Position numbers and translations under genes: made by a program | In this document: positions 26,033 to 54,815 of the stretch, one piece after another | How the letters are laid out: the number at the start of each line of letters is the position of its first letter | Position numbering within the stretch: position 1 is the stretch's first letter | Assembly: GCF_964199755.1 (NCBI RefSeq) | Contig: NC_133929.1 | Coordinates: 5,287,806-5,351,805, forward strand | Source of the DNA: Larus michahellis | Taxonomy: Eukaryota > Chordata > Aves > Charadriiformes > Laridae | DNA: 64,000 nt | Direction: 5' to 3' | The notes under the pieces: generated by a model | The model's input: the letters and a program-made list of their open reading frames with translations, nothing else | What the model was told of the DNA's origin: nothing | Databases searched by the model: none

Positions 26033-26050
26033 TGGCGCCCAACGTGGGGC
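26033..26050 (+). other. Primer-binding site, tRNA-Lys1,2
   Basis: TGGCGCCCAACGTGGGGC, 8 bp after the LTR; complement of the 3' end of tRNA-Lys (CTT). Confidence 0.92.
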
Positions 26051-26165
26051 TTGAAGGGTTGAGATAACGACAGAATCCAACTAGAACGTGGAAAAAACGG
26101 TTTTGGTTTTTTTTTTTTTTTTCTTGTATGCATTTATTTTATTAGGTAAGTAGTCACTGGTCATC

Positions 26166-28028: not shown

Positions 28029-31000
28029 GGGGGCCCTGCCTCCGGACAGGTGGAGGAAAGGGACAACCGGGTTTATTGGACGGTGTGGATTCGATGGCCT
28101 GGCACATCAGACCCACAGGAGTATAAGACTCTAGTGGACACGGGTGCGCAGTGTACTTTAATACCATCAAGCTATAGAGGGGCAGAACCCATTTGTATTT
28201 CTGGGGTGACAGGGGGATCCCAAGAGTTGACTGTACTGGAGGCAGAAGTGAGCCTAACTGGGAATGAGTGGCAATAGCATCCCATTGTGACTGGCCCAGA
28301 GGCTCCATGCATCCTTGGTATAGATTACCTCAGGAGAGGGTATTTTAAGGACCCAAAAGGGTACCGCTGGGCCTTTGGCATAGCTGCTTTGGAGACAGAG
28401 GAAGTTAAACAGTTGTCTGCCTTGCCTGGTCTCTCGGAGGATTCTTCTGTTGTGGGGTTGTTGAGGGTCAAAGAACAACAGGTGCCGATTGCTACCACAA
28501 CGGTGCATCGGCGGCAGTATCGCACTAACCGAGACTCTCTGATTCCCATCCATGAGCTGATTCGTCAACTAGAGGTTCAAGGAGTGATCAGCAAGACTCG
28601 CTCACCCTTTAACAGTCCCATATGGCCGGTGCGAAAATCTAATGGAGAGTGGAGGCTAACTGTAGACTATCGTGGTCTGAATGAAGTCACGCCACCGCTG
28701 AGTGCTGCCGTGCCGGACATGCTAGAACTCCAGTACGAACTGGAGTCCAAGGCAGCCAAGTGGTATGCCACGATTGATATAGCGAATGCATTCTTCTCAA
28801 TCCCTTTGGCAGCAGAGTGCAGGCCACAGTTTGCTTTCACTTGGAGGGGCGTCCAATACACCTGGAATCGACTGCCCCAGGGGTGGAAACACAGCCCCAC
28901 CATTTGCCATGGACTGATCCAGACTGCACTGGAACAGGGTGAAGCTCCAGAACATCTGCAGTACATTGATGACATCATTGTATGGGGAAACACAGCAGAA
29001 GAAGTTTTTGAGAAAGGGAGTAAAATAGTCCAAATCCTTCTGAACGCTGGTTTTGCTATAAAGCGAAGTAAGGTCAAGGGACCTGCGCAGGAGATCCAGT
29101 TTTTAGGAATAAAATGGCAAGATGGACGCCGTCAGATTCCAATGGATGTGATCAACAAAATAGCAGCTATGTCTCCACCAACTAGTAAAAAGGAAACACA
29201 GGCTTTCTTAGGTATTGTGGGTTTTTGGAGAATGCATATCCCAGATTACAGTCAAATTGTAAGCCCTCTGTATCAAGTAACCCGGAAGAAGAATGATTTT
29301 AAATGGGGTCCTGAGCAACGACAAGCTTTTGAACAAATCAAACAGGAAATAGTCCATGCAGTGGCCCTGGGGCCAGTCCAGGCAGGACAAGATGTTAAAA
29401 ATGTGCTCTATACCGCAGCCGGGGAGAACGGCTCTACCTGGAGCCTCTGGCAGAAAGCACCAGGGGAGACTCGAGGTCGACCCCTAGGGTTTTGGAGTCG
29501 TGGATACAGAGGATCCGAAGCCCGCTACACTCCAACAGAAAAAGAGATATTGGCAGCATATGAAGGGGTTCGAGCTGCTTCGGAAGTAGTTGGTACAGAA
29601 GCACAGCTCCTCTTAGCACCTCGACTGCCGGTGCTGGGTTGGATGTTCAAAGAAAGGGTCCCCACCACACATCATGCAACCGATGCTACATGGAGTAAGT
29701 GGATTGCACTGATCACGCAGCGAACTCGAATGGGAAACCCCAGTCGCCCAGGAATTCTGGAAGTGATCATGGACTGGCCAGAAGGCAAGGATTTCGGAAT
29801 GTCACCAGAGGAGGAGGTGACGCGTGCAGAAGAGGCCCCACCATATAATAAACTGCCAGAAAATGAGAAGAAATATGCCCTGTTCACTGATGGGTCCTGC
29901 CGCATTGTGGGAAAGCATCGAAAGTGGAAGGCTGCTGTGTGGAGTCCTACACGACGGGTTGCAGAAGCCAGTGAGGGACAGGGTGAATCGAGCCAGTTTG
30001 CAGAGGTGAAGGCTATTCAGCTGGCTTTGGACATTGCTGAGCGAGAAAAATGGCCAGTACTTGATCTCTACACTGACTCATGGATGGTGGCAAATGCTCT
30101 CTGGGGGTGGTTACAGCAGTGGAAGCAGGGCAACTGGCAGCGCAGAGGCAAACCCATCTGGGCTGCTGAACTGTGGAAAGATATTGCTGCCCGGATAGAG
30201 AATCTGGTTGTGAAAGTACGCCATGTAGATGCCCATGTACCGAAGAATCGGGCCACGGAGGAACATCAGAACAACCAGCAGGTGGATCGGGCCGCTAGGA
30301 TTGAAGTGGCTCAGGTGGATCTGGACTGGCAACGTAAGGGTGAACTATTCATAGCTCGGTGGGCCCATGACTCCTCAGGCCATCAAGGGAGAGATGCGAC
30401 ATATAGATGGGCTCGTGACCGAGGGGTGGACTTGACCATGGACACTATTGCACAGGTCATCCATGAATGTGAGACATGCGCTGCGATCAAACAAGCCAAG
30501 CGTGTGAAGCCTCTTTGGTATGGAGGGCGATGGCTGAAATACAAATATGGGGAGGCCTGGCAGATTGATTATATCACACTGCCACAAACCCGTCAAGGCA
30601 AGCGCTATGTGCTCACAATGGTGGAAGCAACCACTGGATGGCTGGAAACATACCCTGTGCCCCATGCCACTGCCCGGAACACTATCCTGGGCCTTGAAAA
30701 GCAAGTCCTGTGGCGACATGGTACCCCAGAGAGAATTGAGTCGGACAACGGGACTCATTTCCGAAACAGCCTCATAGACACCTGGGCCAAAGAGCATGGT
30801 ATCGAGTGGGTGTATCACATCCCCTATCACGCACCAGCCTCTGGGAAGATAGAACGATACAATGGACTGTTAAAAACTACACTGAGAGCAATGGGTGGTG
30901 GGACTTTCAAACACTGGGATACACATTTAGCAAAAGCTACCTGGCTAGTTAACACCAGGGGATCTAACAATCGGGCTGGCCCTGCCCAATCAAAACTTCC

Positions 31001-31214
31001 ACGTACCATAGAAGGGGATAAAGTCCCCGTAGTGCACATGAAGAATATGCTAGGGAAGACAGTCTGGGTTAGTCCTGCCTCAGGCAAAGGCAAACCCATC
31101 CGTGGGATTGCTTTTGCCCAAGGACCTGGGTGCACTTGGTGGGTGATGCGGCAGGATGGGGAAGTCCGATGTGTACCTCATGGGGATCTGATTTTGGGCG
31201 AGAATAGCCAATGA
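28029..31214 (+). pseudogene. pol: Pro-pol of ERV A, one early stop
   Basis: In frame with gag after its UAG. The protease starts LVDTGAQCTLIPSS. A TAG at 28275-28277 stands where element B has AAG (Lys), cutting the protein after about 80 codons. The remaining frame (28287-31214) is open and complete: RT with YIDD, RNase H with FTDGSC, and integrase with CETC, QIDYITLP, ESDNGTHF and KIERYNG. Apart from the stop it differs from B by scattered single-residue changes. Confidence 0.9.
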
Positions 31215-31666
31215 ATCAGATTGTGTGCTGTTAATTGATAAGTAACACTGTCACTGTATGTCCTCATTGCTATAATTGCTATCAGTTGTACTACAAGTAA
31301 GGCACAGGGATGATGGGATAAGAACTGATCTCAGCAGCTGGCGCCCAGCAGTTTCCTCAAGATCTACATCTTCAGCCCACGGACTGCGTGCATGAGCCAC
31401 ACCAGGTGCACCAGTCACAAGCTCCGAAAAATACAGCATGCAACAGACCAGCACCACCCAGCATCTCACCTGCCCTGAGAGACTGTTCTAACAAATGGAG
31501 CCCAAAGCCGTGGATTGAAAGAACTCAACGGACACTTTGGAGGGATGACCCATAAACTAAGGGCATTATATGTGTGTATATATATATATATAACAGGGGA
31601 AAGTGGTGGCAATTCATTGGAACCTGCTGGGCATGGCATAGATGGTATGGAATAAGGGGTGGATAA
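31215..31666 (+). other. Non-coding tract between pol and 3' LTR (no env)
   Basis: Only about 450 bp separate pol from the LTR and no envelope, dUTPase or splice-linked frame is visible. It includes a short (TG)n/(TA)n run near 31,570-31,590 and a purine-rich GGAATAAGGGGTGGATAA just before the LTR, the likely purine tract. Confidence 0.8.
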
Positions 31667-32006
31667 TGTCCTGGTTCCGGTGGGGATAGGGTTAACTTTT
31701 CCTGGTATTCCATGCCATGTGAGCCACGCCCACCCTGAGCTGCCGGGGGAGGGGGCAGGAAGTTGCTGCTTAAAAGCGGGCTGGGGCGTCCCGGGTCCGG
31801 CCGGTTGGCAAGCGGCGGTCCCGTAATCGCGTTTGTATATTCCTCTATCCGTGTTGTTGTTGTTTGCCTGTTCCCTTTGCTGTTTTGTTAAACTGCCTTT
31901 GTCCCAACCTAAGAGTCTTGCCTTTTCTTACGATCCTTCCTGTGTTAGGAAGGCACGTGCGAGCGGCACGTGGTTCTTTGTTGCCATCTGAGGCTAAACC
32001 ACGACA
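31667..32006 (+). mobile_element. 3' LTR of ERV A
   Basis: 340 bp. It shares A-specific variants with the 5' LTR (CCCAACCTAAGAG, TTTTGTTAAAC, CTGTGTTAGGAAGG) and lacks the 10-bp GC-rich duplication. Confidence 0.92.
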
Positions 32007-36037: not shown

Positions 36038-36472
36038 TGTAATAAGTAACTAAAGGTGATTTGCTGATCGAACAAGTTAAGCAAGAGGAACGAACCCATT
36101 GTGGCAGTCTTGAGAACTCCCTGTTTAACCAGAAGAGACATGTCCACAATGTTATCTTGCTACACCAACATGGGAACTCCTGTTTGACAAAAAGCTTAAC
36201 CACAATGTTATCAGAATGTATTGTTTTGAGCTGATTCTGTGACCAACATTTTATCTAAACTACTTCAAGCAAGAAGCTACAGAGGGGCATACCGAAGATG
36301 TCGAAACCCGACCTCCGTGAAGATAAAAAGAGCTGCTCAGCTTGCTTGAATTTGCGAGCCTTTGGTGGAGCTGTGACTCCCCGGCCGCCCAGCGCTGCTT
36401 TTGCCTTCCTACCTCAATAAATATTTATTGAATCTATTTCGGACTCGATTTATTTTAAATTCAACTATAACA
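36038..36472 (+). mobile_element. 5' LTR of ERV C
   Basis: 435 bp. A TATA-like GATAAAAAG is at 36322-36330 and AATAAA at 36416-36421, inside a small palindrome AATAAATATTTATT. Confidence 0.95.
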
Positions 36473-36476
36473 AATT

Positions 36477-36494: not shown

Positions 36495-36880
36495 CCAGAC
36501 AGCCGACTCGGAATTCAACTCTGGGAGGGCGCCCCGTCTTCGGATGGTCCCGGAGGAGATTCCGACTTAGCTCACCTGGATTTTCTGAACTGAGATAGGA
36601 AAGCAAAAAGAAAAGAGAAAGGAGATACTGCAGTTCCCCATAATTTTTGTGCACGAAGATCCGGACGAAGACTCGGGAGTGAGTAAGTATATTGCGGTTC
36701 CGTTCGGTCGGGGATTGGGTACCCGGGTGCGAGTGACTGAGACGTCCACTGGGCTTAGTAGCCCACCAGACGAAGTGAGTGTGGACCTCCTAATAGTGCG
36801 GTTCCCATTGTCCGCGAGGGCGTGGGCCACGAACGGAGGGAAGTGAGTGAATTTTGAGTGAAAGAAGGCACTTTCGGAAG
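36495..36880 (+). other. Leader / likely packaging region of ERV C
   Basis: About 385 bp between PBS and gag. GGTAAG-type splice donors are not obvious, though GAGTGAGTAAGT at about 36,679 is a candidate. The gag frame extends only 27 bp upstream of its ATG, so a long leader-Gag like that of MLV is not seen. Confidence 0.55.
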
Positions 36881-38326
36881 ATGGGACAGAAGAAAAGTAG
36901 GACTTCTGGTTCCATGCAGGAGATACGGGGTGGGGGTGGGCTCCCCGATATACCCCAAGATAGCCCGTTAGGCCTAATGATTAGATATTGGGATAGTTCC
37001 CCTTCTCGAAAAGGGAAGTCCAAGGAGAAATTGGTCTATTATTGTATGGAGGTATGGGGAAGAAAACAGATAAGAAAAGATTTATATTGGCCAATTCATG
37101 GATCCTTAGAGGATTGGATATGCCAACAATTAAACATATATGTTAACAACAAACGACCATTTAATAAGGAGGAGAGTGAATACGCCTTTTTATGGATCCT
37201 GGGCACGGCTCAGGCCGCTAATTTGTTTCCATTAAAAGAAAAGAAAAATGATAGAAAGAAAAGGTGGGATGTAGACGAACCTCCAGCGTCTCCCCCACCC
37301 TATGTCCCCCCTCCGCAAGGTCCTGAGCAAGATCTCCCTCCAACAGCCCCCACAGAAGCTGGGGAAGAGGCTCCTCCTTCTAATCGAAGAATAACTAGAA
37401 GTCAAACTAGAGAAAGGAGGGAGGAAAACTTGTTGTATCCCTTAAGGGAGACTGCTATGGGGGGACCACAACCCGGAGTTGGATTTGTATCTGTACCCCT
37501 CAGCTCCGGAGATGTGAGGGAATTTAAGAAAGAAATGGGACACTTGTTAGAGGACCCATCAGGGGTAGCAGAACGTTTTGATCAATTCCTCGGGCCTAAC
37601 ATTTATACTTGGGACGAGATGGAATCTATTTTAAAGATCTTGTTCACAAACGAAGAGCGAGGAATGATCAGAATGGCAGGCATGAGGCATTGGGATCAGA
37701 GGCATCAGCATGGTCCCGCCGGAGATGTAAAATGGCCCTTACAGTGGCCCAATTGGGACAATCAAGACCCCGCACATAGAAATAACATGATTGATCTCCG
37801 GGATATAATAATTCAGGGGATTAGAGATTCTGTACCCAGAGGGCAAAATATTAATAAGGCCTTTAATGAACAACAAAAGAAAGATGAAACCCCCACCGAA
37901 TGGCTGGAAAGATTGAGAAAAAGTTTACAGCTATATTCCGGGTTAGACCCCGATAGCCAAGTGGGTCAAGCCCTGCTGAAAACTCAATTTGTAGCTAAAT
38001 CTTGGACAGATATAAGGGAAAAGTTAGAGAAAGTAGAAGACTGGCAGGGAAGGGGGTTAGATGAATTATTACGAGAAGCTCAGAAGGTGTATGTGAGAAG
38101 GGAGGAAGAAAATCAGAAGAAACAAGCCAGAATCCTGATGGCAGCTGTAAGGGAAGGACAAAATCAGGGCAGGAGAGGAGAAAGTCCCCGGAAGGGCCCA
38201 GTAGAACCGAGAAGAAGAAGATTTAGTTCGCAGGACATAGAATGTTTTTATTGTCGCAAGAAGGGACATCTACAGAGAAATTGTCGGAAAAGAAGGCAGG
38301 ATGAGGAGATTTTTAAGGAAGATTAG
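36881..38326 (+). CDS. gag: Gag polyprotein, gammaretrovirus-like
   Basis: 481 codons from ATG 36881. I chose this start because it gives MGQKKS, a myristoylation-type start, rather than an upstream TTG in frame. Matrix ~1-130, then a late-domain PPPY at 138-141 in a Pro-rich region, capsid ~200-410 with the homology-region words ETPTEWLERLRKSLQLYSG, a charged stretch, and one zinc knuckle CFYCRKKGHLQRNC at 455-468. One knuckle and a PPPY are typical of gammaretroviruses. It ends in UAG followed by GGGGGTCAGGGG, in frame with pol. Confidence 0.95.
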   Translation: MGQKKSRTSGSMQEIRGGGGLPDIPQDSPLGLMIRYWDSSPSRKGKSKEKLVYYCMEVWGRKQIRKDLYWPIHGSLEDWICQQLNIYVNNKRPFNKEESEYAFLWILGTAQAANLFPLKEKKNDRKKRWDVDEPPASPPPYVPPPQGPEQDLPPTAPTEAGEEAPPSNRRITRSQTRERREENLLYPLRETAMGGPQPGVGFVSVPLSSGDVREFKKEMGHLLEDPSGVAERFDQFLGPNIYTWDEMESILKILFTNEERGMIRMAGMRHWDQRHQHGPAGDVKWPLQWPNWDNQDPAHRNNMIDLRDIIIQGIRDSVPRGQNINKAFNEQQKKDETPTEWLERLRKSLQLYSGLDPDSQVGQALLKTQFVAKSWTDIREKLEKVEDWQGRGLDELLREAQKVYVRREEENQKKQARILMAAVREGQNQGRRGESPRKGPVEPRRRRFSSQDIECFYCRKKGHLQRNCRKRRQDEEIFKED

Positions 38327-38341
38327 GGGGGTCAGGGGCTC
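38324..38341 (+). promoter_or_regulatory. gag-pol UAG readthrough context
   Basis: The gag stop TAG is followed in frame by GGG GGT CAG GGG and then protease sequence. This is nearly the MLV context (UAG GGA GGU CAG), where readthrough yields Gag-Pol. The downstream pseudoknot was not tested. Confidence 0.8.
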
Positions 38342-41300
38342 TATTTGCTGGGGACCCCTAAGGTTACCGAGCCCGTGATAAAATTGAAATTGGGTCCTCA
38401 GCACGAAGTGTTCGAGTTCCTTGTGGACTCGGGTGCCAAAAGATCAACAGTCCAAAAGTTACCATCTGGATGTGTTGAATCAAAGGATAAACTCCAAGTA
38501 ATTGGTGCAAAGGGGGAACCTTTTAAGGTGCCCCTGATAAGGAATGTAACAATAGAAGCCCCAAATAAATATGGAGTGGGAACATTTTTATTGGTCCCAG
38601 AAGCTGAGTATAACCTCTTGGGACGAGACCTGATGGTGGAATTAGGAATCAATTTGGAAGTAGAGCAAGAGAAATTAAAAGTAAGATTATGCTTATTAAC
38701 TGCGGAAGATGAAGCCAAGATTAATCCAGAAACTTGGTATAGCCCAGGGTCGGTGGGAAAATTAAATATCAAACCGATCACGGTCTCCATAAAAGACCCA
38801 GACCAGCCAATTAGGATAAAACAGTATCCCATCTCTAGGGAGGGGAGAGAAGGGTTGCAGCCAGTAATTGAGAGACTTTTGGCCCAAGGGCTTTTGGAAC
38901 CCTGTATGTCTCCCCACAATACTCCCATATTGCCCGTAAAGAAGCCGGATGGGTCCTATCGTTTAGTACAAGATCTGAGAGCCGTAAATGAACGAACCAT
39001 TACCCGGTTCCCTGTGGTGGCTAACCCGCACACTATACTTAATCAGTTAAGTCCAGATTATAAATGGTATAGTGTTATAGATTTAAAAGATGCTTTTTGG
39101 GCTTGTCCCTTAGAAGGAAAATGTAGGGACTATTTTGCTTTCGAGTGGGAGAACCCCAAGACCCATAGAAAACAACAATTACGGTGGACCGTTTTGCCCC
39201 AGGGATTTACAGAGTCTCCGAACTTGTTTGGACAAGCTCTGGAACAGTTACTGGAATCTTATGAATTAAGTCAGGGACTAATTCTAATACAATACGTGGA
39301 TGATTTATTGATCGCTGGAAGAACTCAAGAAGAAGTCAGAAATGAGAGCATCAAATTATTGAACTTTTTAGGCCTCAAGGGATTAAAGGTTTCTAAGTCC
39401 AAATTACAGTTTACTGAAGAAGAGGTAAAATATTTGGGGCATTGGCTCATAAAGGGACACAAGAAATTAGATCCCGAAAGAGTAAAAGGAATTTTGTCTC
39501 TAACAGCGCCCACTAATAAAAGACAGATAAGACAGTTATTGGGATTATTAGGGTATTGTCGACAGTGGATAGAAAATTACAGCAGTAAAGTAAAATTCTT
39601 GTACGAAAAATTAACTAAAAACGGGTTGGTAAAATGGTCCCCTGAAGATGACAATTGTTGGGAAAATATAAAAAGAGATCTGGTAGAAGCACCTGTCCTC
39701 AGTTTACCCGATATCCGTAAACCCTTTCAACTCTTTATCAATGTAGATAACGGGACAGCTTATGGGGTTCTGACCCAAGGATGGGCAGGGCAGAGAAAGC
39801 CTGTAGGATATTATTCTAAAATACTGGATCCTGTAAGCCGCGGGTGGCCCACCTGCTTGCAAGCAATAGTGGCCACTGCATTAGTAGTGGAAGAAGTTGG
39901 AAAAGTCACCTTGGGAGGTGAACTAAAAGTATACACCCCCCATAACATTCGAGGAGTATTGCAACAACGGGCTGATAAGTGGCTTACAGATAGTCGACTG
40001 CTAAAATATGAGGGAATTTTAATTAACTCCCCTCGACTAGAAATGGAAACCACTTCTATTCAGAATCCTGCCCAATTTTTATACGGAGAACCTAAAGAAG
40101 ATTTGACACATGACTGCCTTCAACTAATAAATTTGCAGACTAAAATAAGGGAGGACTTAGAAGATGATGAATTAGACGAAGGAGAAAAATTATTTGTGGA
40201 CGGCTCCTCACGAGTGGTTGAAGGACAACGGAAATCAGGTTATGCTATTGTGGATGGGTATACTTTTAAGATAAAAGAATCAGGACCATTAAGTAAAGCC
40301 TGGTCCGCACAAGCGTGTGAGTTATATGCTATGCTAAGGGCATTAAAGCTCTTAGAAAATAAAGTTGGAACTATTTATACAGATTCAAAGTATACCTTTG
40401 GGGTGGTACATACTTTTGGAAAAATTTGGGAAGAGAGAGGCTTAATTAACACCCAGGGAAAAGGATTAGTCCATGAAAAGCTAATCTTAGAAGTTTCAAA
40501 GGCATTAAGAGGTCCACTAAAGATAGCCATAGTCCATGTAAAAGGACATCAGAAGGGACTAACCCATACTGTAAGAGGAAACAATCTAGCCGACGCGGAG
40601 GCAAAACGGGCTGCATTATTAATGGTTCAGACCTTGAGAGAGGAACCTGAAAGGCTAAAATTAGATAAAACTTTCACTCTCCAAGAATTGGATAAGCTAA
40701 AACAAATTGGAGCAAAAAGAGATGGTGATAAATGGCTGCTACCAAACGGCAGGGAAATTCTTCCAAAAGGATTAGCTCGGGGAATACTGAATAAATTACA
40801 CCATAAAACTCATTGGGGAATTCAAGCTTTAGTGGATCAGTTTGAGACAAACTATGCCTGTGTCGGAATATACGGTCTAGCTAAGAGGATTTTAGAGGGA
40901 TGTTTAACCTGTCACAAAGTGAATAAACGACAACTTAGGGAAAAGGTTCAAGGAGGTCGTGAATTGGCTAAAGGACCCTTTGAGAAAATACAGGTGGATT
41001 TTACCGAATTGCCAAAGGTGGGGAGATATCAGTATTTATTGGTCTTGGTTGATCACCTTACGCACTTTGTAAAAGCCTTTCCAGTGGTAAGAGCTACTGC
41101 AAAGACAGTTATTAAGATTCTCTTGGAAGAAATTATTCCAAGATATGGGACTGTTGTGGTAATTGACTCAGACCGAGGTCCACATTTCACATCCAAAGTA
41201 ATTAAAGAGACAACTGAATTGTTTGGTACAAAATGGGAATACCATACTCCCTGGCACCCACAGAGTTCTGGGAAAGTAGAAAGAATGAATGGGGAGATAA

Positions 41301-41818
41301 AGAAACACCTAACCAAACTTATGGTGGAAACAAAAATGAATTGGGTTAAATGTTTACCATTGGCTTTGCTTTACATTAGAACTCAGCCAAGAACAGATAC
41401 TGGTATATCCCCCTTTGAAATGTTGTATGGAATGCCTTATGACTTTGGGTTATTAGTGGAACACCCAAAAGTCGAGGATAAACTTTTAACAGAATATATT
41501 TTAGAACTTACAAAAAGAAGACAGGAACTAAGAAAGAAGGGCTTGGTAGTACAAAGACCTCCCTTGGACATTTCCATACACCGAATCCAGCCCGGAGACC
41601 AGGTACTAATCAAAACCTGGAAAGAAACCTCCCTAACACCCCGTTGGGAAGGACCCTTTGTTGTTTTACTTACCACAGATACGGCTGTACGGACAGCAGA
41701 AAAAGGATGGACTCACGCTAGTAGGATTAAGGGACCTATCTTCCCAGAGAAGTGGACTGTGACGTCGGAACCAGGAGATCTTCGAGTAAAGATAAGGAAA
41801 AGCGAGACCGGTAAATGA
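38327..41818 (+). CDS. pol: Pro-Pol polyprotein, gammaretrovirus-like
   Basis: Made by readthrough of the gag UAG; open to TGA 41816-41818. Counting from 38345, the protease has FLVDSGAKRST (DSG near 28-30). RT has LPQGFTESP and YVDD at 317-320. RNase H has FVDGSS (D619), Glu659, IYTDSK (D680) and NNLADAEA (D750). Integrase has HH-x-x-H (819-823), CLTC (853-856), and catalytic D885, D943 and E979 (D-35-E), and ends with the gamma-type WKETSLTPRWEGPFVVLLTT segment. All catalytic residues are present. The last bases overlap the start of the accessory frame by ATGA. Confidence 0.95.
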   Translation, partial: GGQGLYLLGTPKVTEPVIKLKLGPQHEVFEFLVDSGAKRSTVQKLPSGCVESKDKLQVIGAKGEPFKVPLIRNVTIEAPNKYGVGTFLLVPEAEYNLLGRDLMVELGINLEVEQEKLKVRLCLLTAEDEAKINPETWYSPGSVGKLNIKPITVSIKDPDQPIRIKQYPISREGREGLQPVIERLLAQGLLEPCMSPHNTPILPVKKPDGSYRLVQDLRAVNERTITRFPVVANPHTILNQLSPDYKWYSVIDLKDAFWACPLEGKCRDYFAFEWENPKTHRKQQLRWTVLPQGFTESPNLFGQALEQLLESYELSQGLILIQYVDDLLIAGRTQEEVRNESIKLLNFLGLKGLKVSKSKLQFTEEEVKYLGHWLIKGHKKLDPERVKGILSLTAPTNKRQIRQLLGLLGYCRQWIENYSSKVKFLYEKLTKNGLVKWSPEDDNCWENIKRDLVEAPVLSLPDIRKPFQLFINVDNGTAYGVLTQGWAGQRKPVGYYSKILDPVSRGWPTCLQAIVATALVVEEVGKVTLGGELKVYTPHNIRGVLQQRADKWLTDSRLLKYEGILINSPRLEMETTSIQNPAQFLYGEPKEDLTHDCLQLINLQTKIREDLEDDELDEGEKLFVDGSSRVVEGQRKSGYAIVDGYTFKIKESGPLSKAWSAQACELYAMLRALKLLENKVGTIYTDSKYTFGVVHTFGKIWEERGLINTQGKGLVHEKLILEVSKALRGPLKIAIVHVKGHQKGLTHTVRGNNLADAEAKRAALLMVQTLREEPERLKLDKTFTLQELDKLKQIGAKRDGDKWLLPNGREILPKGLARGILNKLHHKTHWGIQALVDQFETNYACVGIYGLAKRILEGCLTCHKVNKRQLREKVQGGRELAKGPFEKIQVDFTELPKVGRYQYLLVLVDHLTHFVKAFPVVRATAKTVIKILLEEIIPRYGTVVVIDSDRGPHFTSKVIKETTELFGTKWEYHTPWHPQSSGKVERMNGEIKKHLTKLMVETKMNWVKCLPLALLYIRTQPRTDTGISPFEMLYGMPYDFGLLVEHPKVEDKLLTEYILELTKRRQELRKKGLVVQRPPLDISIHRIQPGDQVLIKTWKETSLTPRWEGPFVVLLTTDTAVRTAEKGWTHASRIKGPIFPEKWTVTSEPGDLRVKIRKSETGK

Positions 41819-42114
41819 ACCACTCCAGAAGGGAACTAAGAGATAGTTTATATCGATGGTTCCAAATACCACCAGGAAATACTCTACGAAAGGTATATTT
41901 TGCACCTTGGAGTGAAGAAAGGATACCGGACCAAACAGGGGGGGGGTGGATTATACAAACTAACAGGAACTCCCCAGGTTTTTCCATTTTGTTGCGAAAC
42001 AGAGACGGAGATACCCGAATCGCCCAGAATAGGAGATCTCTGGGGAATACCCTGCTTAAAACACCCTACTTCCGGACATTTATGTTGGGTTGTTTGCCGA
42101 TGTCTAAATTGTAA
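41815..42114 (+). CDS. Accessory frame 1 between pol and env (unknown)
   Basis: 99 codons whose ATG overlaps the pol stop (ATGA). It encodes a basic, aromatic N-terminal part (LRDSLYRWFQIPPGN, KVYFAPWSEERIPDQ) and then reaches a run of nine G at 41938-41946. Before the run this frame looks like real protein; after it, the other frame (41900-42358) looks better. Gammaretroviruses normally have no gene here. Identical in copy D. I do not recognise the family. Confidence 0.5.
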   Translation: MNHSRRELRDSLYRWFQIPPGNTLRKVYFAPWSEERIPDQTGGGWIIQTNRNSPGFSILLRNRDGDTRIAQNRRSLGNTLLKTPYFRTFMLGCLPMSKL

Positions 42115-42358
42115 TAGAGATTGGTCCTGTGTTTCATTTAAGAGACAACCCTACTGTATGAAATGTCGCAATGATTTGATACGTGCCAGGGGACCAGAGG
42201 ATCCAGTGGAAATTCGTAAATTATTTTGTGGGTGGGAACTGTCAGTACCTGAACTTTGGGAAGTACATGAAACAGACTGGTATAGAGTTTTAAGACAGTG
42301 TGCTATAAGATTCGCCTGGAAACGGGCACAACAACCACATAGGTGGAAATATATTTGA
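41900..42358 (+). CDS. Accessory frame 2: cysteine-rich, zinc-finger-like (unknown)
   Basis: The protein-like part begins at the nine-G run (41938-41946), +1 relative to frame 1, and runs to TGA 42356-42358. It holds 13 Cys, most in one cluster: CLKHPTSGHLCWVVC, RCLNCNRDWSC and YCMKCRNDL. The CXXC pairs and nearby His suggest one or two bound zinc ions. A Trp-rich basic C-terminus follows (ELWEVHETDWYRVL, FAWKRAQQPHRWKYI). It has no ATG of its own near its start; expression by slippage on the G run, by splicing, or not at all are all open. No similarity was recognised. A nucleic-acid-binding or regulatory role is speculation. Confidence 0.55.
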   Translation: MHLGVKKGYRTKQGGGGLYKLTGTPQVFPFCCETETEIPESPRIGDLWGIPCLKHPTSGHLCWVVCRCLNCNRDWSCVSFKRQPYCMKCRNDLIRARGPEDPVEIRKLFCGWELSVPELWEVHETDWYRVLRQCAIRFAWKRAQQPHRWKYI

Positions 42359-42513
42359 GAGATAACTAACTCTTTAGACCTTGGAAATTATTGACAGGAT
42401 AACAGCAAAATTCCCCTGAAGACTATCTGCTGCTGCCGAGAAGATCTTGATATCCCGTTGCTCTCTGCAAAGGAGTAGACGAGGAAGGCAGAGAGGTACT
42501 AAACAGTGGGGAA

Positions 42514-44352
42514 ATGAAAGCTGGTATCCTATTAATGGTATTGATTACCATGACTTTAGAAAATGAACATCAACCCTTCAATTGGACCTTAGGTCGATGG
42601 GAAGATTCAATGGAAGTTCGGTATAATGTGACAGCCGGACCCCCAGAATTCCAAGTTAAATTGGAAGATTTAGTCTTTTATGAACTAGACCCACCTGGCC
42701 GACGAGAAAGAGCAATAAAACCTTTTTATCTCTGCCCCAGTTCGAATCCAGGGAAAAGCTATTGCAATTTCCCTAATCACTATTACTGTGCATATTGGGG
42801 ATGTGAAACCATAGCTTCAAACTGGGACGTAGCCATTAAAGATAGATTTTTAACTATAACATGGGGACCCAGAGGATGCAACCCGCCAGCTCCTAGCTGG
42901 GATGGACACATAGAGGGCCCCCACCTTGGCAACTGTAAGCATGTTATACTAGACATCCTGCAGCCTAATGACCACGGATGGTTATTGGGACGAACCTGGG
43001 GAATGCGATATTGGGAATCTGGAACTGATAGAGGAGGACTAATATTCATTCAAAAACGGGAAGTTAAAATGCCACAAGCAGTAGGGCCCAATCGAGTCAT
43101 CACAAAGCAAAAAGGGAAAAAGAAGAAGCCAAAGGTAGGAAACTCCACAGCCTCAGTCACCCCAGGGACATACCTAACCTCTACAAATAAAGTGGAGAAA
43201 ATACCCAAAGACAATGAACCCTTATGGGCTGTAATGCAGGCAGCCTATCAAGCTTTAAATACAACAAATCCAAATTTTACCATTTCCTGTTGGTTATGTT
43301 ATGACATAAAGCCCCCTTTTTATGAGGGGATAGCTGTGTCATCTCCTTTTAATACCTCTACCGAGGACAATCCCTCCAGATGTAATTGGAAGGAACGGAA
43401 GGCGGAGATTACTCTCCAACAGGTCAGAGGGAGTGGTTGGTGTATAGGGAAGGTAACGAACGAGAGAAGAACTCTATGTACCAACCAGACTCAAAACTTT
43501 ACATCTAATACTAAATGGGTTCTGCCCAGTCCTGGGGCATGGTGGGTCTGCTCCATAACCGGATTAACACCGTGTTTGTCCACTGCTGTTCTCAAGGAAA
43601 GTATCTCAGAATTTTGTGTACAGGTTACTGTGGTACCTAGAATCCTCTTACATGGGGAAGAAACTATGTATTTACACTGGAGCAATTTAGGACATAAAAT
43701 CAACAAACAAGAGCCAATATCTACAATTACTATAGCTACTCTACTTGGTTTAGGGGTCGCTGGGACCGCCACTGGCATAACCTCCTTGGTGCAACAACAG
43801 CAGAGTCTAACATCTCTAAGAGCTGCAGTAGACGAAGATTTGGCCCGAATAGAAAAATCTATTTCCTATTTAGAGAAATCATTGACCTCATTGTCGGAAG
43901 TAGTTTTACAGAATCGAAGAGGATTGGACCTTTTGTTCTTGCAAAACGGAGGATTATGTGCTGCCCTAGGTGAAGAATGTTGCTTTTATGCTGACCATAC
44001 AGGGGTAGTAAGAGATTCGTTAGCTAAACTGAGAGAGGGATTAGAGAAAAGAAAACGAGAGCGAGAGGCTCAGTCCTCCCGGTATGAATCTTGGTTTAAT
44101 CAGTCACCATGGCTGAGTACCTTAATTTCTACTTTGGCGGGACCCCTCATGATGTTGCTATTGGCTCTGACTCTTGGACCCTGTGTCATTAACAAATTTG
44201 TAACCTTTGTTGAAAGCAGGTTAGAAAAAGTGCAGCTAATGGTGATGAAGCAATCAGAACTGGAAATGAAACTTATACCGAACGAAAATCCTGAATTAGA
44301 TGCAGCTTGTGAGGTATTGTCTAGGTTTGATCAGCAAATCACTTATAAATAA
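42514..44352 (+). CDS. env: Env glycoprotein, gammaretrovirus-like, intact frame
   Basis: 612 codons. A short hydrophobic leader (residues 1-14) is followed by an SU with many N-glycosylation sites and a CWLC motif (259-262), the CXXC isomerase-type motif of gamma SU. A fusion-peptide-like stretch (~401-427, ITIATLLGLGVAGTATGI), a heptad region, LQNRRGLDLLFLQNGG and CX6CC (C482, C489, C490) follow, with an anchor ~537-562. No Arg-X-Lys-Arg furin site precedes the fusion peptide: the local sequence is HKINKQEP. The same 612 residues are coded by copy D. The stop lies about 14 bp from the LTR, with the purine tract AAAAGAAGGGGGGG between. Confidence 0.95.
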   Translation: MKAGILLMVLITMTLENEHQPFNWTLGRWEDSMEVRYNVTAGPPEFQVKLEDLVFYELDPPGRRERAIKPFYLCPSSNPGKSYCNFPNHYYCAYWGCETIASNWDVAIKDRFLTITWGPRGCNPPAPSWDGHIEGPHLGNCKHVILDILQPNDHGWLLGRTWGMRYWESGTDRGGLIFIQKREVKMPQAVGPNRVITKQKGKKKKPKVGNSTASVTPGTYLTSTNKVEKIPKDNEPLWAVMQAAYQALNTTNPNFTISCWLCYDIKPPFYEGIAVSSPFNTSTEDNPSRCNWKERKAEITLQQVRGSGWCIGKVTNERRTLCTNQTQNFTSNTKWVLPSPGAWWVCSITGLTPCLSTAVLKESISEFCVQVTVVPRILLHGEETMYLHWSNLGHKINKQEPISTITIATLLGLGVAGTATGITSLVQQQQSLTSLRAAVDEDLARIEKSISYLEKSLTSLSEVVLQNRRGLDLLFLQNGGLCAALGEECCFYADHTGVVRDSLAKLREGLEKRKREREAQSSRYESWFNQSPWLSTLISTLAGPLMMLLLALTLGPCVINKFVTFVESRLEKVQLMVMKQSELEMKLIPNENPELDAACEVLSRFDQQITYK

Positions 44353-44366: not shown

Positions 44367-44801
44367 TGTAATAAGTAACCAAAGGTGATTTGCTGATCGA
44401 ACAAGTTAAGCAAGAGGAACGAACCCATTGTGGCAGTCTTGAGAACTCCCTGTTTAACCAGAAGAGACATGTCCACAATGTTATCTTGCTACACCAACAT
44501 GGGAACTCCTGTTTGACAAAAAGCTTAACCACAATGTTATCAGAATGTATTGTTTTGAGCTGATTCTGTGACCAACATTTTATCTAAACTACCTCAAGCA
44601 AGAAGCTACAGAGGGGCATACCGAAGATGTCGAAACCCGACCTCCGTGAAGATAAAAAGAGCTGCTCAGCTTGCTTGAATTTGCGAGCCTTTGGTGGAGC
44701 TGCGACTCCCCGGCCGCCCAGCGCTGCTTTTGCCTTCCTACCTCAATAAATATTTATTGAATCTATTTCGGACTTGATTTATTTTAAATTCAACTATAAC
44801 A
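44367..44801 (+). mobile_element. 3' LTR of ERV C
   Basis: 435 bp. Differs from the 5' LTR at four places by eye: AACTAAAGG/AACCAAAGG, CTACTTCAA/CTACCTCAA, GCTGTGAC/GCTGCGAC and GACTCGATT/GACTTGATT. Confidence 0.95.
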
Positions 44802-44811
44802 ATACCTTACA

Positions 44812-48736: not shown

Positions 48737-49174
48737 TGTCCCTGTCCCTGGTGGGGATAGGGTTAACTTTTCCTGGTATTCCATGCCATGTGAGCCACGC
48801 CCACCCTGAGCTGCCGGGGGAGGGGGCAGGAAGTTGCTGCTTAAAAGCGGGCTGGGGCGTCCCGGGTCCGGCCGGTTGGTGAGTGGCGGGGAGCAGTGGT
48901 TCTGTAATCGTGTTTGTATATTCCCCTATCGTTGCTGCTGTTGCTGCTGTTGCTGCTGTTGCTGCTGTTGCTGCTGTTGCTGCTGTTGCTGCTGTTGCTG
49001 CTGTTGCTGCTGTTGCTGCTGTTGCTGCTGTTTGCCTGTTCCCTTTGCTGTTCTGTTAAACTGCCTTTGTCCCAACCCAAGAGTCTTGCCTTTTCTTACG
49101 ATCCTTCCTGTATTAGGAAGGCACGTGCGAGCGGCACGTGGTTCTTTGTTGCCATCTGAGGCTAAACCACGACA
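48737..49174 (+). mobile_element. 5' LTR of ERV B with expanded repeat
   Basis: 438 bp; about 90 bp longer than its partner because of the repeat at 48931-49030. The left edge is altered (TGTCCCTGTCCCTGGTGGGG in place of TGTCCTGGTTCCGGTGGGG). Confidence 0.88.
48931..49030 (+). repeat. (GTTGCTGCT)n microsatellite in the 5' LTR of ERV B
   Basis: About eleven tandem copies of the 9-mer GTTGCTGCT. At the same place the 3' LTR of B and both LTRs of A have only three to five GTT units. Confidence 0.95.
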
Positions 49175-49182
49175 GTCCTTTT

Positions 49183-49200
49183 TGGCGCCCAACGTGGGGC
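49183..49200 (+). other. Primer-binding site, tRNA-Lys1,2
   Basis: TGGCGCCCAACGTGGGGC, 8 bp after the LTR, identical to that of A. Confidence 0.92.
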
Positions 49201-49312
49201 TTGAAGGGTTGAGATAACGACAGAATCCAACTAGAACGTGGAAAAAACGGTTTTGGTTTTTTTTTTTTTCTTGTATGCATTTATTTTATTAGGTAAGTAG
49301 TCACTGGTCATC

Positions 49313-51175
49313 ATGTTGCTTGGTTTGTTCTCATGGCTGTGTTACATAAATTCCTATATGGCTTATGTGCTCCCTGCGATGCTGTTTACCATGTCTGGAA
49401 GAGGGATGAGGATTATCATTCTGCTGTCCTGTGCGATATCTGTTTATGATATGATAACATCACTGTTCAGACGGTTATTTTGGGGTGTTTATGTGGTTTT
49501 GTTGTCCTGTCCGTACATTGGACACCGTCTCTCAGAATTTGTTAATAGTTTCCCCAGCCCTTTTGCCTCCCTTTTCTCCTTCGGGTCAGGTATGACAGCT
49601 TTTGAGAATCTTGAATATCCTTGGGATACTCAAACTAGTGTGTTCCTAGTGCTATGTCTCCTGAATACGTTCCAGGTCTTGTTTAGGGTTAAGCGACTAT
49701 TTAAGACTACCACCCGGAGATCTGCTCCGAGGCTGGATAGTCAGGGGTGGCATGGCATGTGGGAGAGCATGGGCAGGTACCTAGAGAACTACTCACCTCC
49801 AATGGTCTGGGACTTCACCCCTGAACAATTACAGGACCCTGATAAAGTGGTAGAATATTTGAAGGGAAAATGCTGTGGCTATTCTAGAGAGGCACAACTC
49901 ACCGCGCTGTGCTGGGCCCTGGCCAGTATCTACCAGGCACTGCTCAGAATTATGCAGCACCCTCAAGGGGAAGAGATGGAAACCAGACCGGCGGCCCCTG
50001 CGGCTGCTGCAGCCCCTGCGGCAGACACTGCGGCTACTGCAACCCCCGTGGTAGCCACTGCCACTGAACCAGGGAACCAACCCGTGCCGGTATCAGTTGC
50101 CCCCATACAGAAGAAGAAGTACACAAAGAAATCAGTTCGCTTAGTAAGAGGTGATGATGAACCAGGGCCATCACGAGAGCAGGAGGAAGAGGCAGAACCA
50201 GAGATAATTACTCGATCCCTATCCTTGAGTGAGCTGCGGGATATGCGAAAAGATTTCAGCCGACTTTCAGGCGAGCACATTGTCACCTGGCTGCTCCGGT
50301 GCTGGGATAATGGGGCCAGTAGCCTGGAATTAGAGGGTAGGGAGGCCAGGCAGCTGGGATCCCTGTCTAGGGAAGGCGGCATTGACAAGGCGATTGGGAA
50401 AAAGACCCAAGCCCTCAGCCTCTGGAAACGACTCCTGTTAGGCGTGAGGGAGAGGTACCCCTTCAGTGAGGATGTTGTATGTCAGCCAAGCAAGTGGACT
50501 ACCATGGAAAGAGGTATCCAGTACCTGAGAGAATTAGCCGTGCGGGAGATGATTTATTATGACTTGGACAATGCAGACTTACCCACAGACCCTGATGAGG
50601 TGCGATGCACAAGGCCCATGTGGCGGAAGTTTGTACGGAGCGCACCATCGTCATATGCCAACTCCCTGGCAGTAATGGAATGGAAAGGTGAAGAGGGACC
50701 AACGGTGGATGAGGTAGCTGGCTGGCTCCGGCGATATGAAGAAAGTCTCTCTTCCCCCCTTGTCTCAGCTGTGGAGAAACTGTCGCGGAAGTTCCAGCAA
50801 CTTGAAGAGAATATGTTCTACTCCCCACCTGCACGGGCCAGCATCTCAGCTATTAGAAGCAGGCATTTCCCCACTCAAGAGAGAGAGTACAGAGGGTACA
50901 CACCACGAGGCACCCTGTGGTTCTACCTGCGGGACCACGGAGAGGACATGAGGAAGTGGGATGGACAACCTACTTCGATCCTGCGGACACGGGTACAGGA
51001 GTTGCAAGGAAGGACAACCACAAAAGGGGATCCCTCCAGGAAAAGTGCCGCCCCAGTTTCCAGTGGGCCGTTCCCCAGACAAAGCAGAAGGCCTGATCTT
51101 GCTTCTGATCCTCTTGAAGGAACTTCCAAGTCATTTATGCAAGAAGTGAGTAATGGATACTATGACGAGTATTAG
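49313..51175 (+). CDS. gag: Gag-like protein with N-terminal membrane segments
   Basis: 620 codons, colinear with the A copy; same four hydrophobic N-terminal stretches and no zinc knuckle. The main difference is in the Ala-rich linker (~228-250), where B reads AADTAATATPVVATATEP. Other differences are scattered single residues (for example Asn/Ser near 79, His/Gln near 389, Arg/Trp near 472). Ends in UAG, in frame with pol. Confidence 0.83.
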   Translation: MLLGLFSWLCYINSYMAYVLPAMLFTMSGRGMRIIILLSCAISVYDMITSLFRRLFWGVYVVLLSCPYIGHRLSEFVNSFPSPFASLFSFGSGMTAFENLEYPWDTQTSVFLVLCLLNTFQVLFRVKRLFKTTTRRSAPRLDSQGWHGMWESMGRYLENYSPPMVWDFTPEQLQDPDKVVEYLKGKCCGYSREAQLTALCWALASIYQALLRIMQHPQGEEMETRPAAPAAAAAPAADTAATATPVVATATEPGNQPVPVSVAPIQKKKYTKKSVRLVRGDDEPGPSREQEEEAEPEIITRSLSLSELRDMRKDFSRLSGEHIVTWLLRCWDNGASSLELEGREARQLGSLSREGGIDKAIGKKTQALSLWKRLLLGVRERYPFSEDVVCQPSKWTTMERGIQYLRELAVREMIYYDLDNADLPTDPDEVRCTRPMWRKFVRSAPSSYANSLAVMEWKGEEGPTVDEVAGWLRRYEESLSSPLVSAVEKLSRKFQQLEENMFYSPPARASISAIRSRHFPTQEREYRGYTPRGTLWFYLRDHGEDMRKWDGQPTSILRTRVQELQGRTTTKGDPSRKSAAPVSSGPFPRQSRRPDLASDPLEGTSKSFMQEVSNGYYDEY

Positions 51176-51193
51176 GGGGGCCCTGCCTCCGGC
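51173..51193 (+). promoter_or_regulatory. gag-pol UAG junction (probable readthrough)
   Basis: TAG GGG GGC CCT GCC follows the gag frame directly, and the same frame stays open through protease, RT and integrase. No ATG lies between. A has the same junction at 28026-28028. Readthrough is inferred from the shared frame and the purine-rich 3' context. Confidence 0.65.
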
Positions 51194-54100
51194 CAGGTGG
51201 AGGAAAGGGACAACCGGGTTTATTGGACGGTGTGGATTCGATGGCCTGGCACATCAGACCCACAGGAGTATAAGGCTCTAGTGGACACGGGTGCACAGTG
51301 CACCCTAATACCATCAAGCTATAGAGGGGCAGAACCCATTTGTATTTCTGGGGTGACAGGGGGATCCCAAGAGTTGACTGTACTGGAGGCGGAAGTGAGC
51401 CTAACTGGGAATGAGTGGCAAAAGCATCCCATTGTGACTGGCCCAGAGGCTCCATGCATCCTTGGTATAGATTACCTCAGGAGAGGGTATTTTAAGGACC
51501 CAAAAGGGTACCGCTGGGCCTTTGGCATAGCTGCTTTGGAGACAGAGGAAGTTAAACAGTTGTCTGCCTTGCCTGGTCTCTCGGAGGATTCTTCTGTTGT
51601 GGGGTTGTTGAGGGTCAAAGAACAACAGGTGCCGATTGCTACCACAACGGTGCATCGGCGGCAGTATCGCACTAACCGAGACTCTCTGATTCCCATCCAT
51701 GAGCTGATTCGTCAACTAGAGGTTCAAGGAGTGATCAGCAAGACTTGCTCACCCTTTAACAGTCCCATATGGCCGGTGCGAAAATCTAATGGAGAGTGGA
51801 GGCTAACTGTAGACTATCGTGGCCTGAATGAAGTCACGCCACCGCTGAGTGCTGCCGTGCCGGACATGCTAGAACTCCAGTACGAACTGGAGTCCAAGGC
51901 AGCCAAGTGGTATGCCACGATTGATATAGCGAATGCATTCTTCTCAATCCCTTTGGCAGCAGAGTGCAGGCCACAGTTTGCTTTCACTTGGAGGGGCGTC
52001 CAATACACCTGGAGTCGACTGCCCCAGGGGTGGAAACACAGCCCCACCATTTGCCATGGACTGATCCAGACTGCACTGGAACAGGGTGAAGCTCCAGAAC
52101 ATCTGCAGTACATTGATGACATCATTGTATGGGGAAACACAGCAGAAGAAGTTTTTGAGAAAGGGAGTAAAATAGTCCAAATCCTTCTGAACGCTGGTTT
52201 TGCTATAAAGCGAAGTAAGGTCAAGGGACCTGCGCAGGAGATCCAGTTTTTAGGAATAAAATGGCAAGATGGATGCCGTCAGATTCCAATGGATGTGATC
52301 AACAAAATAGCAGCTATGTCTCCACCAACTAGTAAAAAGGAAACACAGGCTTTCTTAGGTATTGTGGGTTTTTGGAGAATGCATATCCCAGATTACAGTC
52401 AAATTGTAAGCCCTCTGTATCAAGTAACCCGGAAGAAGAATGATTTTAAATGGGGTCCTGAGCAACGACAAGCTTTTGAACAAATCAAACAGGAAATAGT
52501 CCATGCAGTGGCCCTGGGGCCAGTCCGGGCAGGACAAGATGTTAAAAATGTGCTCTATACCGCAGCCGGGGAGAACGGCCCTACCTGGAGCCTCTGGCAG
52601 AAAGCACCAGGGGAGACTCGAGGTCGACCCCTAGGGTTTTGGAGTCGTGGATACAGAGGATCCGAAGCCCGCTACACTCCAGCAGAAAAAGAGATATTGG
52701 CAGCATATGAAGGGGTTCGAGCTGCTTCGGAAGTGGTTGGTACAGAAGCACAGCTCCTCTTAGCACCTCGACTGCCGGTGCTGGGTTGGATGTTCAAAGA
52801 AAGGGTCCCCACCACACATCATGCAACCGATGCTACATGGAGTAAGTGGATTGCACTGATCACGCAGCGAACTCGAATGGGAAACCCCAGTCGCCCAGGA
52901 ATTCTGGAAGTGATCATGGACTGGCCAGAAGGCAAGGATTTCGGAATGTCACCAGAGGAGGAGGTGACGCGTGCAGAAGAGGCCCCACCATATAATAAAC
53001 TGCCAGAAAATGAGAAGAAATATGCCCTGTTCACTGATGGGTCCTGCCGCATTGTGGGAAAGCATCGAAAGTGGAAGGCTGCTGTGTGGAGTCCTACACG
53101 ACGGGTTGCAGAAGCCAGTGAAGGACAAGGTGAATCGAGCCAGTTTGCAGAGGTGAAGGCTATTCAGCTGGCTTTGGACATTGCTGAGCGAGAAAAATGG
53201 CCAGTACTTGATCTCTACACTGACTCATGGATGGTGGCAAATGCTCTGTGGGGGTGGTTACAGCAGTGGAAGCAGGGCAACTGGCAGCGCAGAGGCAAAC
53301 CCATCTGGGCTGCTGAACTGTGGAAAGATATTGCTGCCCGGATAGAGAATCTGGTTGTGAAAGTACGCCATGTAGATGCCCATGTACCGAAGAATCGGGC
53401 CACGGAGGAACATCAGAACAACCAGCAGGTGGATCGGGCCGCTAGGATTGAAGTGGCTCAGGTGGATCTGGACTGGCAACGTAAGGGTGAACTATTCATA
53501 GCTCGGTGGGCCCATGACTCCTCAGGCCATCAAGGGAGAGATGCGACATATAGATGGGCTCGTGACCGAGGGGTGGACTTGACCATGGACACTATTGCAC
53601 AGGTCATCCATGAATGTGAGACATGCGCTGCGATCAAACAAGCCAAGCGTGTGAAGCCTCTTTGGTATGGAGGGCGATGGCTGAAATACAAATATGGGGA
53701 GGCCTGGCAGATTGATTATATCACACTGCCACAAACCCGTCAAGGCAAGCGCTATGTGCTCACAATGGTGGAAGCAACCACTGGATGGCTGGAAACATAC
53801 CCTGTGCCCCATGCCACTGCCCGGAACACTATCCTGGGCCTTGAAAAGCAAGTCCTGTGGCGACATGGTACCCCAGAGAGAATTGAGTCGGACAACGGGA
53901 CTCATTTCCGAAACAGCCTCATAGACACCTGGGCCAAAGAGCATGGCATTGAGTGGGTGTATCACATCCCCTGTCACGCACCAGCCTCTGGGAAGATAGA
54001 ACGATACAATGGACTGTTAAAAACTACACTGAGAGCAATGGGTGGTGGGACTTTCAAACACTGGGATACACATTTAGCAAAAGCTACCTGGCTAGTTAAC

Positions 54101-54361
54101 ACCAGGGGATCTACCAATCGGGCTGGCCCTGCCCAATCAAAACTTCCACGTACTGTGGAAGGGGATAAAGTCCCCGTAGTGCATATGAAGAATATGCTAG
54201 GGAAGACAGTCTGGGTTAGTCCTGCCTCAGGCAAAGGCAAACCCATCCGTGGGATTGCTTTTGCCCAAGGACCTGGGTGCACTTGGTGGGTGATGCGGCA
54301 GGATGGGGAAGTCCGATGTGTACCTCATGGGGATCTGATTTTGGGTGAGAATAGCCAATGA
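51176..54361 (+). CDS. pol: Pro-Pol polyprotein, class III-like, intact frame
   Basis: Open for 1,061 codons after the gag UAG. Counting from 51197, the protease has LVDTGAQC (DTG 30-32), RT has LPQGWKHSP and YIDD at 305-308, RNase H has FTDGSC (D614), LYTDSW and QQVDRAA. Integrase has H-x4-H and CETC, and catalytic D840, D899 and E935 (D-35-E). Its words IESDNGTHF, IEWVYHIP and GKIERYNGLLK resemble ERV-L/foamy-like integrases more than beta or gamma ones. No dUTPase follows integrase, unlike mammalian ERV-L. A has a TAG where B has Lys at 51422-51424. Confidence 0.93.
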   Translation, partial: GGPASGQVEERDNRVYWTVWIRWPGTSDPQEYKALVDTGAQCTLIPSSYRGAEPICISGVTGGSQELTVLEAEVSLTGNEWQKHPIVTGPEAPCILGIDYLRRGYFKDPKGYRWAFGIAALETEEVKQLSALPGLSEDSSVVGLLRVKEQQVPIATTTVHRRQYRTNRDSLIPIHELIRQLEVQGVISKTCSPFNSPIWPVRKSNGEWRLTVDYRGLNEVTPPLSAAVPDMLELQYELESKAAKWYATIDIANAFFSIPLAAECRPQFAFTWRGVQYTWSRLPQGWKHSPTICHGLIQTALEQGEAPEHLQYIDDIIVWGNTAEEVFEKGSKIVQILLNAGFAIKRSKVKGPAQEIQFLGIKWQDGCRQIPMDVINKIAAMSPPTSKKETQAFLGIVGFWRMHIPDYSQIVSPLYQVTRKKNDFKWGPEQRQAFEQIKQEIVHAVALGPVRAGQDVKNVLYTAAGENGPTWSLWQKAPGETRGRPLGFWSRGYRGSEARYTPAEKEILAAYEGVRAASEVVGTEAQLLLAPRLPVLGWMFKERVPTTHHATDATWSKWIALITQRTRMGNPSRPGILEVIMDWPEGKDFGMSPEEEVTRAEEAPPYNKLPENEKKYALFTDGSCRIVGKHRKWKAAVWSPTRRVAEASEGQGESSQFAEVKAIQLALDIAEREKWPVLDLYTDSWMVANALWGWLQQWKQGNWQRRGKPIWAAELWKDIAARIENLVVKVRHVDAHVPKNRATEEHQNNQQVDRAARIEVAQVDLDWQRKGELFIARWAHDSSGHQGRDATYRWARDRGVDLTMDTIAQVIHECETCAAIKQAKRVKPLWYGGRWLKYKYGEAWQIDYITLPQTRQGKRYVLTMVEATTGWLETYPVPHATARNTILGLEKQVLWRHGTPERIESDNGTHFRNSLIDTWAKEHGIEWVYHIPCHAPASGKIERYNGLLKTTLRAMGGGTFKHWDTHLAKATWLVNTRGSTNRAGPAQSKLPRTVEGDKVPVVHMKNMLGKTVWVSPASGKGKPIRGIAFAQGPGCTWWVMRQDGEVRCVPHGDLILGENSQ

Positions 54362-54815
54362 ATCAGATTGTGTGCTGTTAATTGATAAGTAACACTGTCA
54401 CTGTATGTCCTCATTGCTATAATTGCTATCAGTTGTACTACAAGTAAGGCACAGGGATGATGGGATAAGAACTGATCTCAGCAGCTGGCGCCCAGCGACT
54501 TCCTCAAGATCTACATCTTCAGCCCACGGACTGCGTGCATGAGCCACACCAGGTGCACCAGTCACAAGCTCCGAAAAATACAGCATGCAACAGACCAGCA
54601 CCACCCAGCATCTCACCTGCCCTGAGAGACTGTTCTAACAGATGGAGCCCAAAGCCGTGGATTAAAAGAACTCAACGGACACTTTGGAGGGATGACCCAT
54701 AAACTAAGGGCATTATATGTGTGTGTATATATATATATAAAACAGGGGAAAGTGGTGGCAATTCATTGGAACCTGCTGGGCATGGCATAGATGGTATGGA
54801 ATAAGGGGTGGATAA
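54362..54815 (+). other. Non-coding tract between pol and 3' LTR (no env)
   Basis: About 450 bp, near-identical to 31215-31666 of A, with a short TG/TA run near 54,720-54,740 and no open frame of interest. The absence of env in both copies makes it a family trait. Confidence 0.8.

Follow-up and report, generated by a model that had tools for sequence, protein, structure and literature searches.

Reading frames between pol and env of element C

Does the DNA between pol and env of element C, a gamma-like provirus in the genome of the bird Larus michahellis, encode a protein, and in which frame would it be read? Element C is located in a stretch of 64,000 nucleotides, here called the window, which is a cluster of endogenous retroviruses (ERVs) at 5.29–5.35 Mb of a 26.9-Mb contig. 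A preliminary description of this DNA had proposed that two frames at 41815–42358 belong together as a cysteine-rich accessory gene, and had considered programmed or polymerase slippage, a spliced exon, and a gene broken in a shared ancestor. Our analysis suggests, with a probability of roughly 0.85, that 41815–42358 belongs to a conserved family of accessory genes located between pol and env, and that this copy has lost its frame at a G run. The gene has a frame of its own outside gag, pol, and env, and this frame is kept in independent lineages: the close copies of the region (family 1) and a second gamma-like family (family 2). The parts of the region are as follows.

41815–41937, plus strand: N-terminal part of the proposed accessory gene, in frame 1, with its own ATG over the pol stop; aligns to family 2
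41938–41946, plus strand: run of nine Gs at which the frame is lost in element C; its length differs among copies
41948–42358, plus strand: C-terminal part of the proposed accessory gene, read in frame 2 and containing the Cys/His cluster; this frame lacks an ATG upstream of 42158

Frame 1 starts at the ATG at 41815 and extends over 99 codons to 42114, and frame 2 is open over 172 codons (41840–42358) and contains the Cys/His cluster. The overlap of the ATG with the pol stop, the dense Cys/His cluster of frame 2, and the meeting of the two frames at nine Gs were all as previously described. The nine Gs are the sole single-base run of at least seven within 36884–44349. Frame 2 lacks an ATG upstream of 42158, so the N-terminus of its product would have to be supplied from another place. 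None of 5000 dinucleotide shuffles matched its open length of 172 codons, the 136 codons 3′ of the G run were open in 1 of 5000, and 12 Cys codons in one frame occurred in 1 of 5000. Among the 92 open runs of at least 100 codons in the window, four others exceeded this region in Cys richness.

Codon statistics trained on the element's own gag, pol, and env identified the correct frame in 26 of 29, 68 of 74, and 30 of 38 test stretches of these genes, respectively. They favoured frame 1 before the G run, with 0.19 per codon (0.19–0.22 for the genes), and frame 2 overall after it, with 0.15 per codon. The best frame-switch point by these statistics was 41926, within noise of the G run.

Close copies in the same genome

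Copies of the region were collected by a DNA search of the genome (40 copies scored of 59 candidates) and a protein search (165 candidates, of which 150 were scored and 104 matched). The genome contains at least 55 close copies, defined as rows covering residues 1–135 or 2–135 at 93% identity or more, with C and its twin D included. The comparison set comprised 42 distinct full-length copies: 38 were retrieved by position, and four, C among them, came from other loci; D, a partial copy (L062), and 12 further full rows, mostly more diverged, were left out. The ATG is kept in all 42. A single frame of about 180 codons runs through to the stop in 13, and the stop comes two codons early in 7. Judged from the position of the first stop, the frame is lost at the G run, in several ways, in 16, and the remaining 6 are broken elsewhere. 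The G-run length, whose comparison across copies had been proposed, took eight values when "no run of five or more" was counted as one. Because the length varies in this way across copies, the run is a hot spot. Homopolymers are hot spots for reverse transcriptase and also for sequencers. The suggestion of a gene broken in a shared ancestor accordingly holds in part: 16 of the 42 lost the frame at the run, and 20 are whole or two codons short.

Element D is an inverted near-twin of C, truncated by the window end, and carries the following copy.

60337–60880, minus strand: element D's copy of the proposed accessory gene, matching that of C letter for letter

The two elements are 100% identical across 41815–42513 and show 4 differences in 6107 sites. 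The preliminary description was right that both keep the region. Being identical there, they count as a single copy, and their agreement is not independent evidence.

Most of the start of env is missing from 17 of the 42 copies, by a deletion in all 17, and in 15 of them the breakpoints, near 42567 and 44084, are common; L032 and L046 have env deletions of their own. The env-deleted form with the same breakpoints is present at many places in the genome, and it seems to have spread after env loss. Copies in which the accessory gene is complete or lacks only two codons number 9 among the 17 env-deleted ones and 11 among the 25 with env. L062 has an internal deletion from pol into the accessory gene, after which a frame of 817 codons stays open. 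The contig of the window carries most of the copies found and may be the W chromosome; PMC8310711 describes the W as an ERV refugium.

A second gamma-like family and selection

In the protein search, 40 rows with 38–43% identity and E-values down to 6e-21 belonged to another gamma-like element, family 2, whose integrase shares 58% identity with that of C. Six of its loci were read. In five of them the gene is a single frame that opens with an ATG and spans 186 or 232 residues, and the sixth lacks the ATG. At the one junction examined, this ATG is located three bases 3′ of the pol stop. Among the matches listed, 4 of the 9 rows covering all 232 residues have no stop. None of the six loci has a G run longer than four within the first 300 bases. 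In the alignment of seven natural frames, the two families are 44–45% identical, and both pieces of the window align to family 2 in one frame, which bears out the proposal that the two frames belong together. Eleven Cys and His positions (C60, C80, H83, H88, C94, C96, C99, C114, C117, C138, and C162) are invariant in the seven sequences, as are Trp positions.

The ratio of nonsynonymous to synonymous differences per site (pN/pS) between the families, with one copy of each and 156 codons, was 0.55 (bootstrap 0.43–0.70), and the two shifted frames gave 0.9 and 1.26. The synonymous divergence (dS) was 1.95, near saturation, so this ratio is rough. The pattern of divergence between the families is that of a constrained protein, and purifying selection was found between families on this one pair. 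Random stops and a dN/dS near 1, which the preliminary description had named as signs against a gene, were not seen in this comparison. Its proposal of an accessory gene agrees with the single frame found in 13 of the 42 close copies and in the second family.

Relatives in class II elements

A class I profile was made from the seven natural frames, with no class II sequence in it. We also read six loci just 3′ of class II integrases, which were fetched by choice, fall into two groups, and include no elements of the type of element B (below). All six, and L085 in addition, matched at E ≤ 3.4e-5, with E-values set for 636 sequences. At the loci looked at, the gene order is pol, accessory gene, and env. 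One group has a frame of 143 codons between pol and env, with no stop in 19 of the 21 rows spanning it; 15 of these rows are on one contig and 99% alike, and are perhaps duplications for that reason. These 15 nearly identical frames are strung along about 36–1137 kb of that contig (C19), which has the look of a duplicated array.

The class II frame scored 28.4 bits against the class I profile, and its best shuffle scored 8.1 (1982 scored of 2000). Shuffles with the Cys residues kept in place reached 11.1 and 13.4 at best in two runs (1996 of 2000 scored in one run). Comparison of the class I and class II profiles by hhalign gave a probability of 95.6% and an E-value of 1.3e-8 over 84 columns with 23% identity. 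The CxC..C and CxxC motifs and two C-terminal Cys are aligned, the CxxH..H part does not align, and no counterpart of the class I N-terminal part was found in the class II relatives. The class I gene has a Cys module and a C-terminal module (VP-x-LWE...W...C..RF) in common with class II elements of this genome.

Two class II elements of the window carry matches.

6692–6799, minus strand: decayed C-terminal remnant of the class II relative in element A, with an internal stop, between integrase and the env transmembrane region
18785–18932, plus strand: weak trace of the Cys cluster in element B, in two frames directly after pol

The remnant in element A was found at E 4e-7 by the class I profile and 3e-5 by the class II profile. 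It had initially matched at E 2e-4 with none of 400 shuffles as good (0.004 with composition correction) and had been taken for a chance match before the profiles strengthened it. The trace in element B, which has an Avian_gp85 envelope match, was found by the class II profile at E 0.003 (0.006 and 0.013 for the two frames). It is near noise, as the opposite strand also gives a match, at 0.0095, and the class I profile finds nothing there. The class II profile alone finds C and D in the window (7e-4 and 8e-4, respectively).

The gene was not found in another class I element.

1711–5200 and about 12158–13017, minus strand: element X, an older class I element split by the inserted element A

Its integrase is 50% identical to that of C and 47% to that of family 2. 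At its pol–env junction, neither the class I nor the class II profile gave a match at E 10. Given this result, either the acquisition of the gene predates the split between families 1 and 2, or the gene was lost alongside that split.

Features of the predicted protein and its possible expression

The Cys/His module has the form C-x2-H-x4-H-x5-C-x-C-x2-C-x14-C-x2-C and is followed by a motif centred on VP-x-LWE; the protein ends in a basic stretch. The invariance of its Cys and His ligands is that of a zinc-binding protein, as the preliminary description had supposed. Database matches to the profile in the PDB were mostly antibody light chains and were rejected, with E-values of 0.03 or worse. 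Scans of viral contigs yielded one locus (L001), a phage gene matched by chance, and scans of bacterial and archaeal contigs gave no match. No published description of the gene was found in the literature searched, whose coverage excludes most subscription papers and preprints.

Two candidate splice sites were predicted with a home-made score.

41658–41678, plus strand: candidate 3′ splice site for the accessory gene, rank 2 of 658 AGs
42455–42472, plus strand: candidate 3′ splice site for env, rank 10 of 658 AGs

The former is 137 bases upstream of the ATG, the intervening stretch contains a four-codon frame, and the site is identical in 36 of the 42 copies; the latter is identical in 39. The gene most likely specifies an accessory protein that binds zinc and is translated from spliced mRNA. 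The first sizeable AUG of such an mRNA would be the one over the pol stop, and the product would have about 180 residues. Its Cys and His residues are predicted to bind zinc, and its basic, Trp-rich C-terminus may dock on a partner. Because the gene is kept in env-deleted copies, the protein might act inside the infected cell, after or beside entry. We tentatively consider it an adaptor through which the virus exploits or blocks a host factor, by analogy with lentiviral Vif in position and build.

Evaluation of the alternatives

Several results weigh against a conserved accessory gene with such a role. Over the Cys cluster itself (about 42025–42145), the third frame, which contains stops, scores as high as frame 2 or higher in codon statistics. 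Within the close copies, pN/pS was 0.69 (0.18–3.12) for the first piece and 0.66 (0.28–3.03) for the second, neither of which differs from neutral, and a shifted frame of the second piece also gave 0.66. The profiles compared by hhalign are shallow (effective number of sequences, Neff, 1.2 and 1.0), and the class II frame has no Met from which to start. The candidate upstream splice site was not seen at this spot in family 2. Neither Pfam and NCBIfam for the two pieces of the window nor Pfam for the class II frame returned a convincing family, a HypA match at E 0.15 in one of the seven sequences was unconvincing, and the PDB gave nothing better than the E-values above. AlphaFold models had a mean predicted local distance difference test (pLDDT) score of 41 for the C-terminal piece and 36 for the alignment A1. 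The functional assignment is inferred from position and composition.

The other explanations concern how the two frames are to be read and what the product does. That the open frames arose by chance in a spacer has a next to negligible probability: shuffles of open length and Cys count, the genome copies, the family alignment, pN/pS, and the class II score all oppose it, and the second family refutes it. Expression through programmed slippage would account for nine Gs where the coding frame changes, and the RNA 3′ of the run is slightly more stably folded than its shuffles (z −1.6). This value is unremarkable, since 14 of 200 shuffles fold as well, and we regard slippage as highly improbable: a single frame in 13 of the 42 copies, together with a single frame in family 2 at loci free of long G runs, means that neither slippage nor a spliced-in exon is needed. 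The frame change is not conserved among relatives, and neither of these proposals of the preliminary description is supported. It is unlikely, too, that the sequencer miscounted the run in C and D and that these copies are truly whole. Long G runs are hard to read, and this one is the longest in the coding part; however, the several run lengths in near-identical copies are also what reverse transcription would give.

As for the product, an RNA-binding regulator of the Tat, Rev, or Rem kind is only slightly less likely than a host-factor adaptor, and either is less likely than not. A Cys-rich module followed by a basic C-terminus in both classes would suit it, but no Pfam profile of a known regulator matches, and no arginine-rich stretch is as dense as in the examples we recall. 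Capture of a host gene between pol and env has a published precedent, the KIT-ligand gene of CrocERV29 (PMC4299795). For the present gene it appears quite improbable, as no host gene was recognised among the rows listed from three whole-genome protein searches, each limited to 150 scored candidates or fewer, with flanking DNA inspected for a minority of the rows. A pol–env accessory gene that lost its frame at the G run in element C is the reading that we retain.

Other features of the window

Element C has the following structure.

36038–about 44802, plus strand: element C, gamma-like provirus, with the 4-bp repeat ATAC at both flanks and long terminal repeats (LTRs) 99.1% alike
36854–38326, plus strand: gag open frame
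38327–41818, plus strand: pol open frame
42514–44352, plus strand: env open frame

Pfam matches in the element were Gag_p30, RVT_1, rve, MLVIN_C (the integrase end of murine leukemia virus (MLV) type), and TLV_coat, and its primer site is presumably like that of tRNA-His. Its LTRs (36038–36473 and 44367–44802) differ at 4 of 436 compared sites. The differences between C and D are located at one site before the 3′ LTR and three near its end. Set against this pattern, the mismatches of the LTRs suggest that the 5′ LTR of C may have come from recombination. Another pair of elements, at 25870–32006 and 49020–55161, is 98.7% identical with no env frame seen, and the 620-codon gag frame of the element at 25870–32006 matched no Pfam family at E 0.01. 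No Rfam families or tRNAs were found in the window.

Implications and comparison with known systems

The possession of accessory genes in a complex genome is usually regarded as characteristic of lentiviruses, deltaretroviruses, spumaviruses, and a small number of other retroviruses. If our interpretation is correct, one gene family is common to gamma-like and alpha/beta-like elements in the same place, and avian retroviruses regarded as "simple" carried a gene for regulation or counter-defence that was exchanged between classes or is very old. The many young copies, mostly on one 27-Mb contig, would make expression and function testable in living birds.

Element C resembles simple gammaretroviruses in its gag, its pol with the MLV-type integrase end, and its env of the TLV_coat kind. 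Simple gammaretroviruses have no gene between pol and env, whereas C and family 2 have one; element X differs from these two, with an env-like frame about 55 bases 3′ of pol and no profile match between.

Lentiviral Vif, which bridges an antiviral deaminase to a ubiquitin ligase, is likewise encoded after pol and before env, its start overlaps or touches the pol end, and it is a basic protein with a Cys/His cluster and many Trp. It belongs to another virus class, and the likeness is in place and build only: no Vif profile was among the Pfam matches at E up to 10 for the window pieces, the seven sequences, or the class II frame.

In CrocERV29, also an ERV, an additional gene likewise stands between pol and env, and purifying selection on it was reported (PMC4299795). 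Its gene is a recognisable host cytokine, whereas the present gene has no recognised host relative and is common to classes I and II. The additional open reading frame of XtERV-S and orf-x of Jaagsiekte sheep retrovirus (JSRV) are similarly extra frames near the pol end (PMC8278194); they overlap pol, whereas the present gene follows it and has relatives in two classes of retroviruses.
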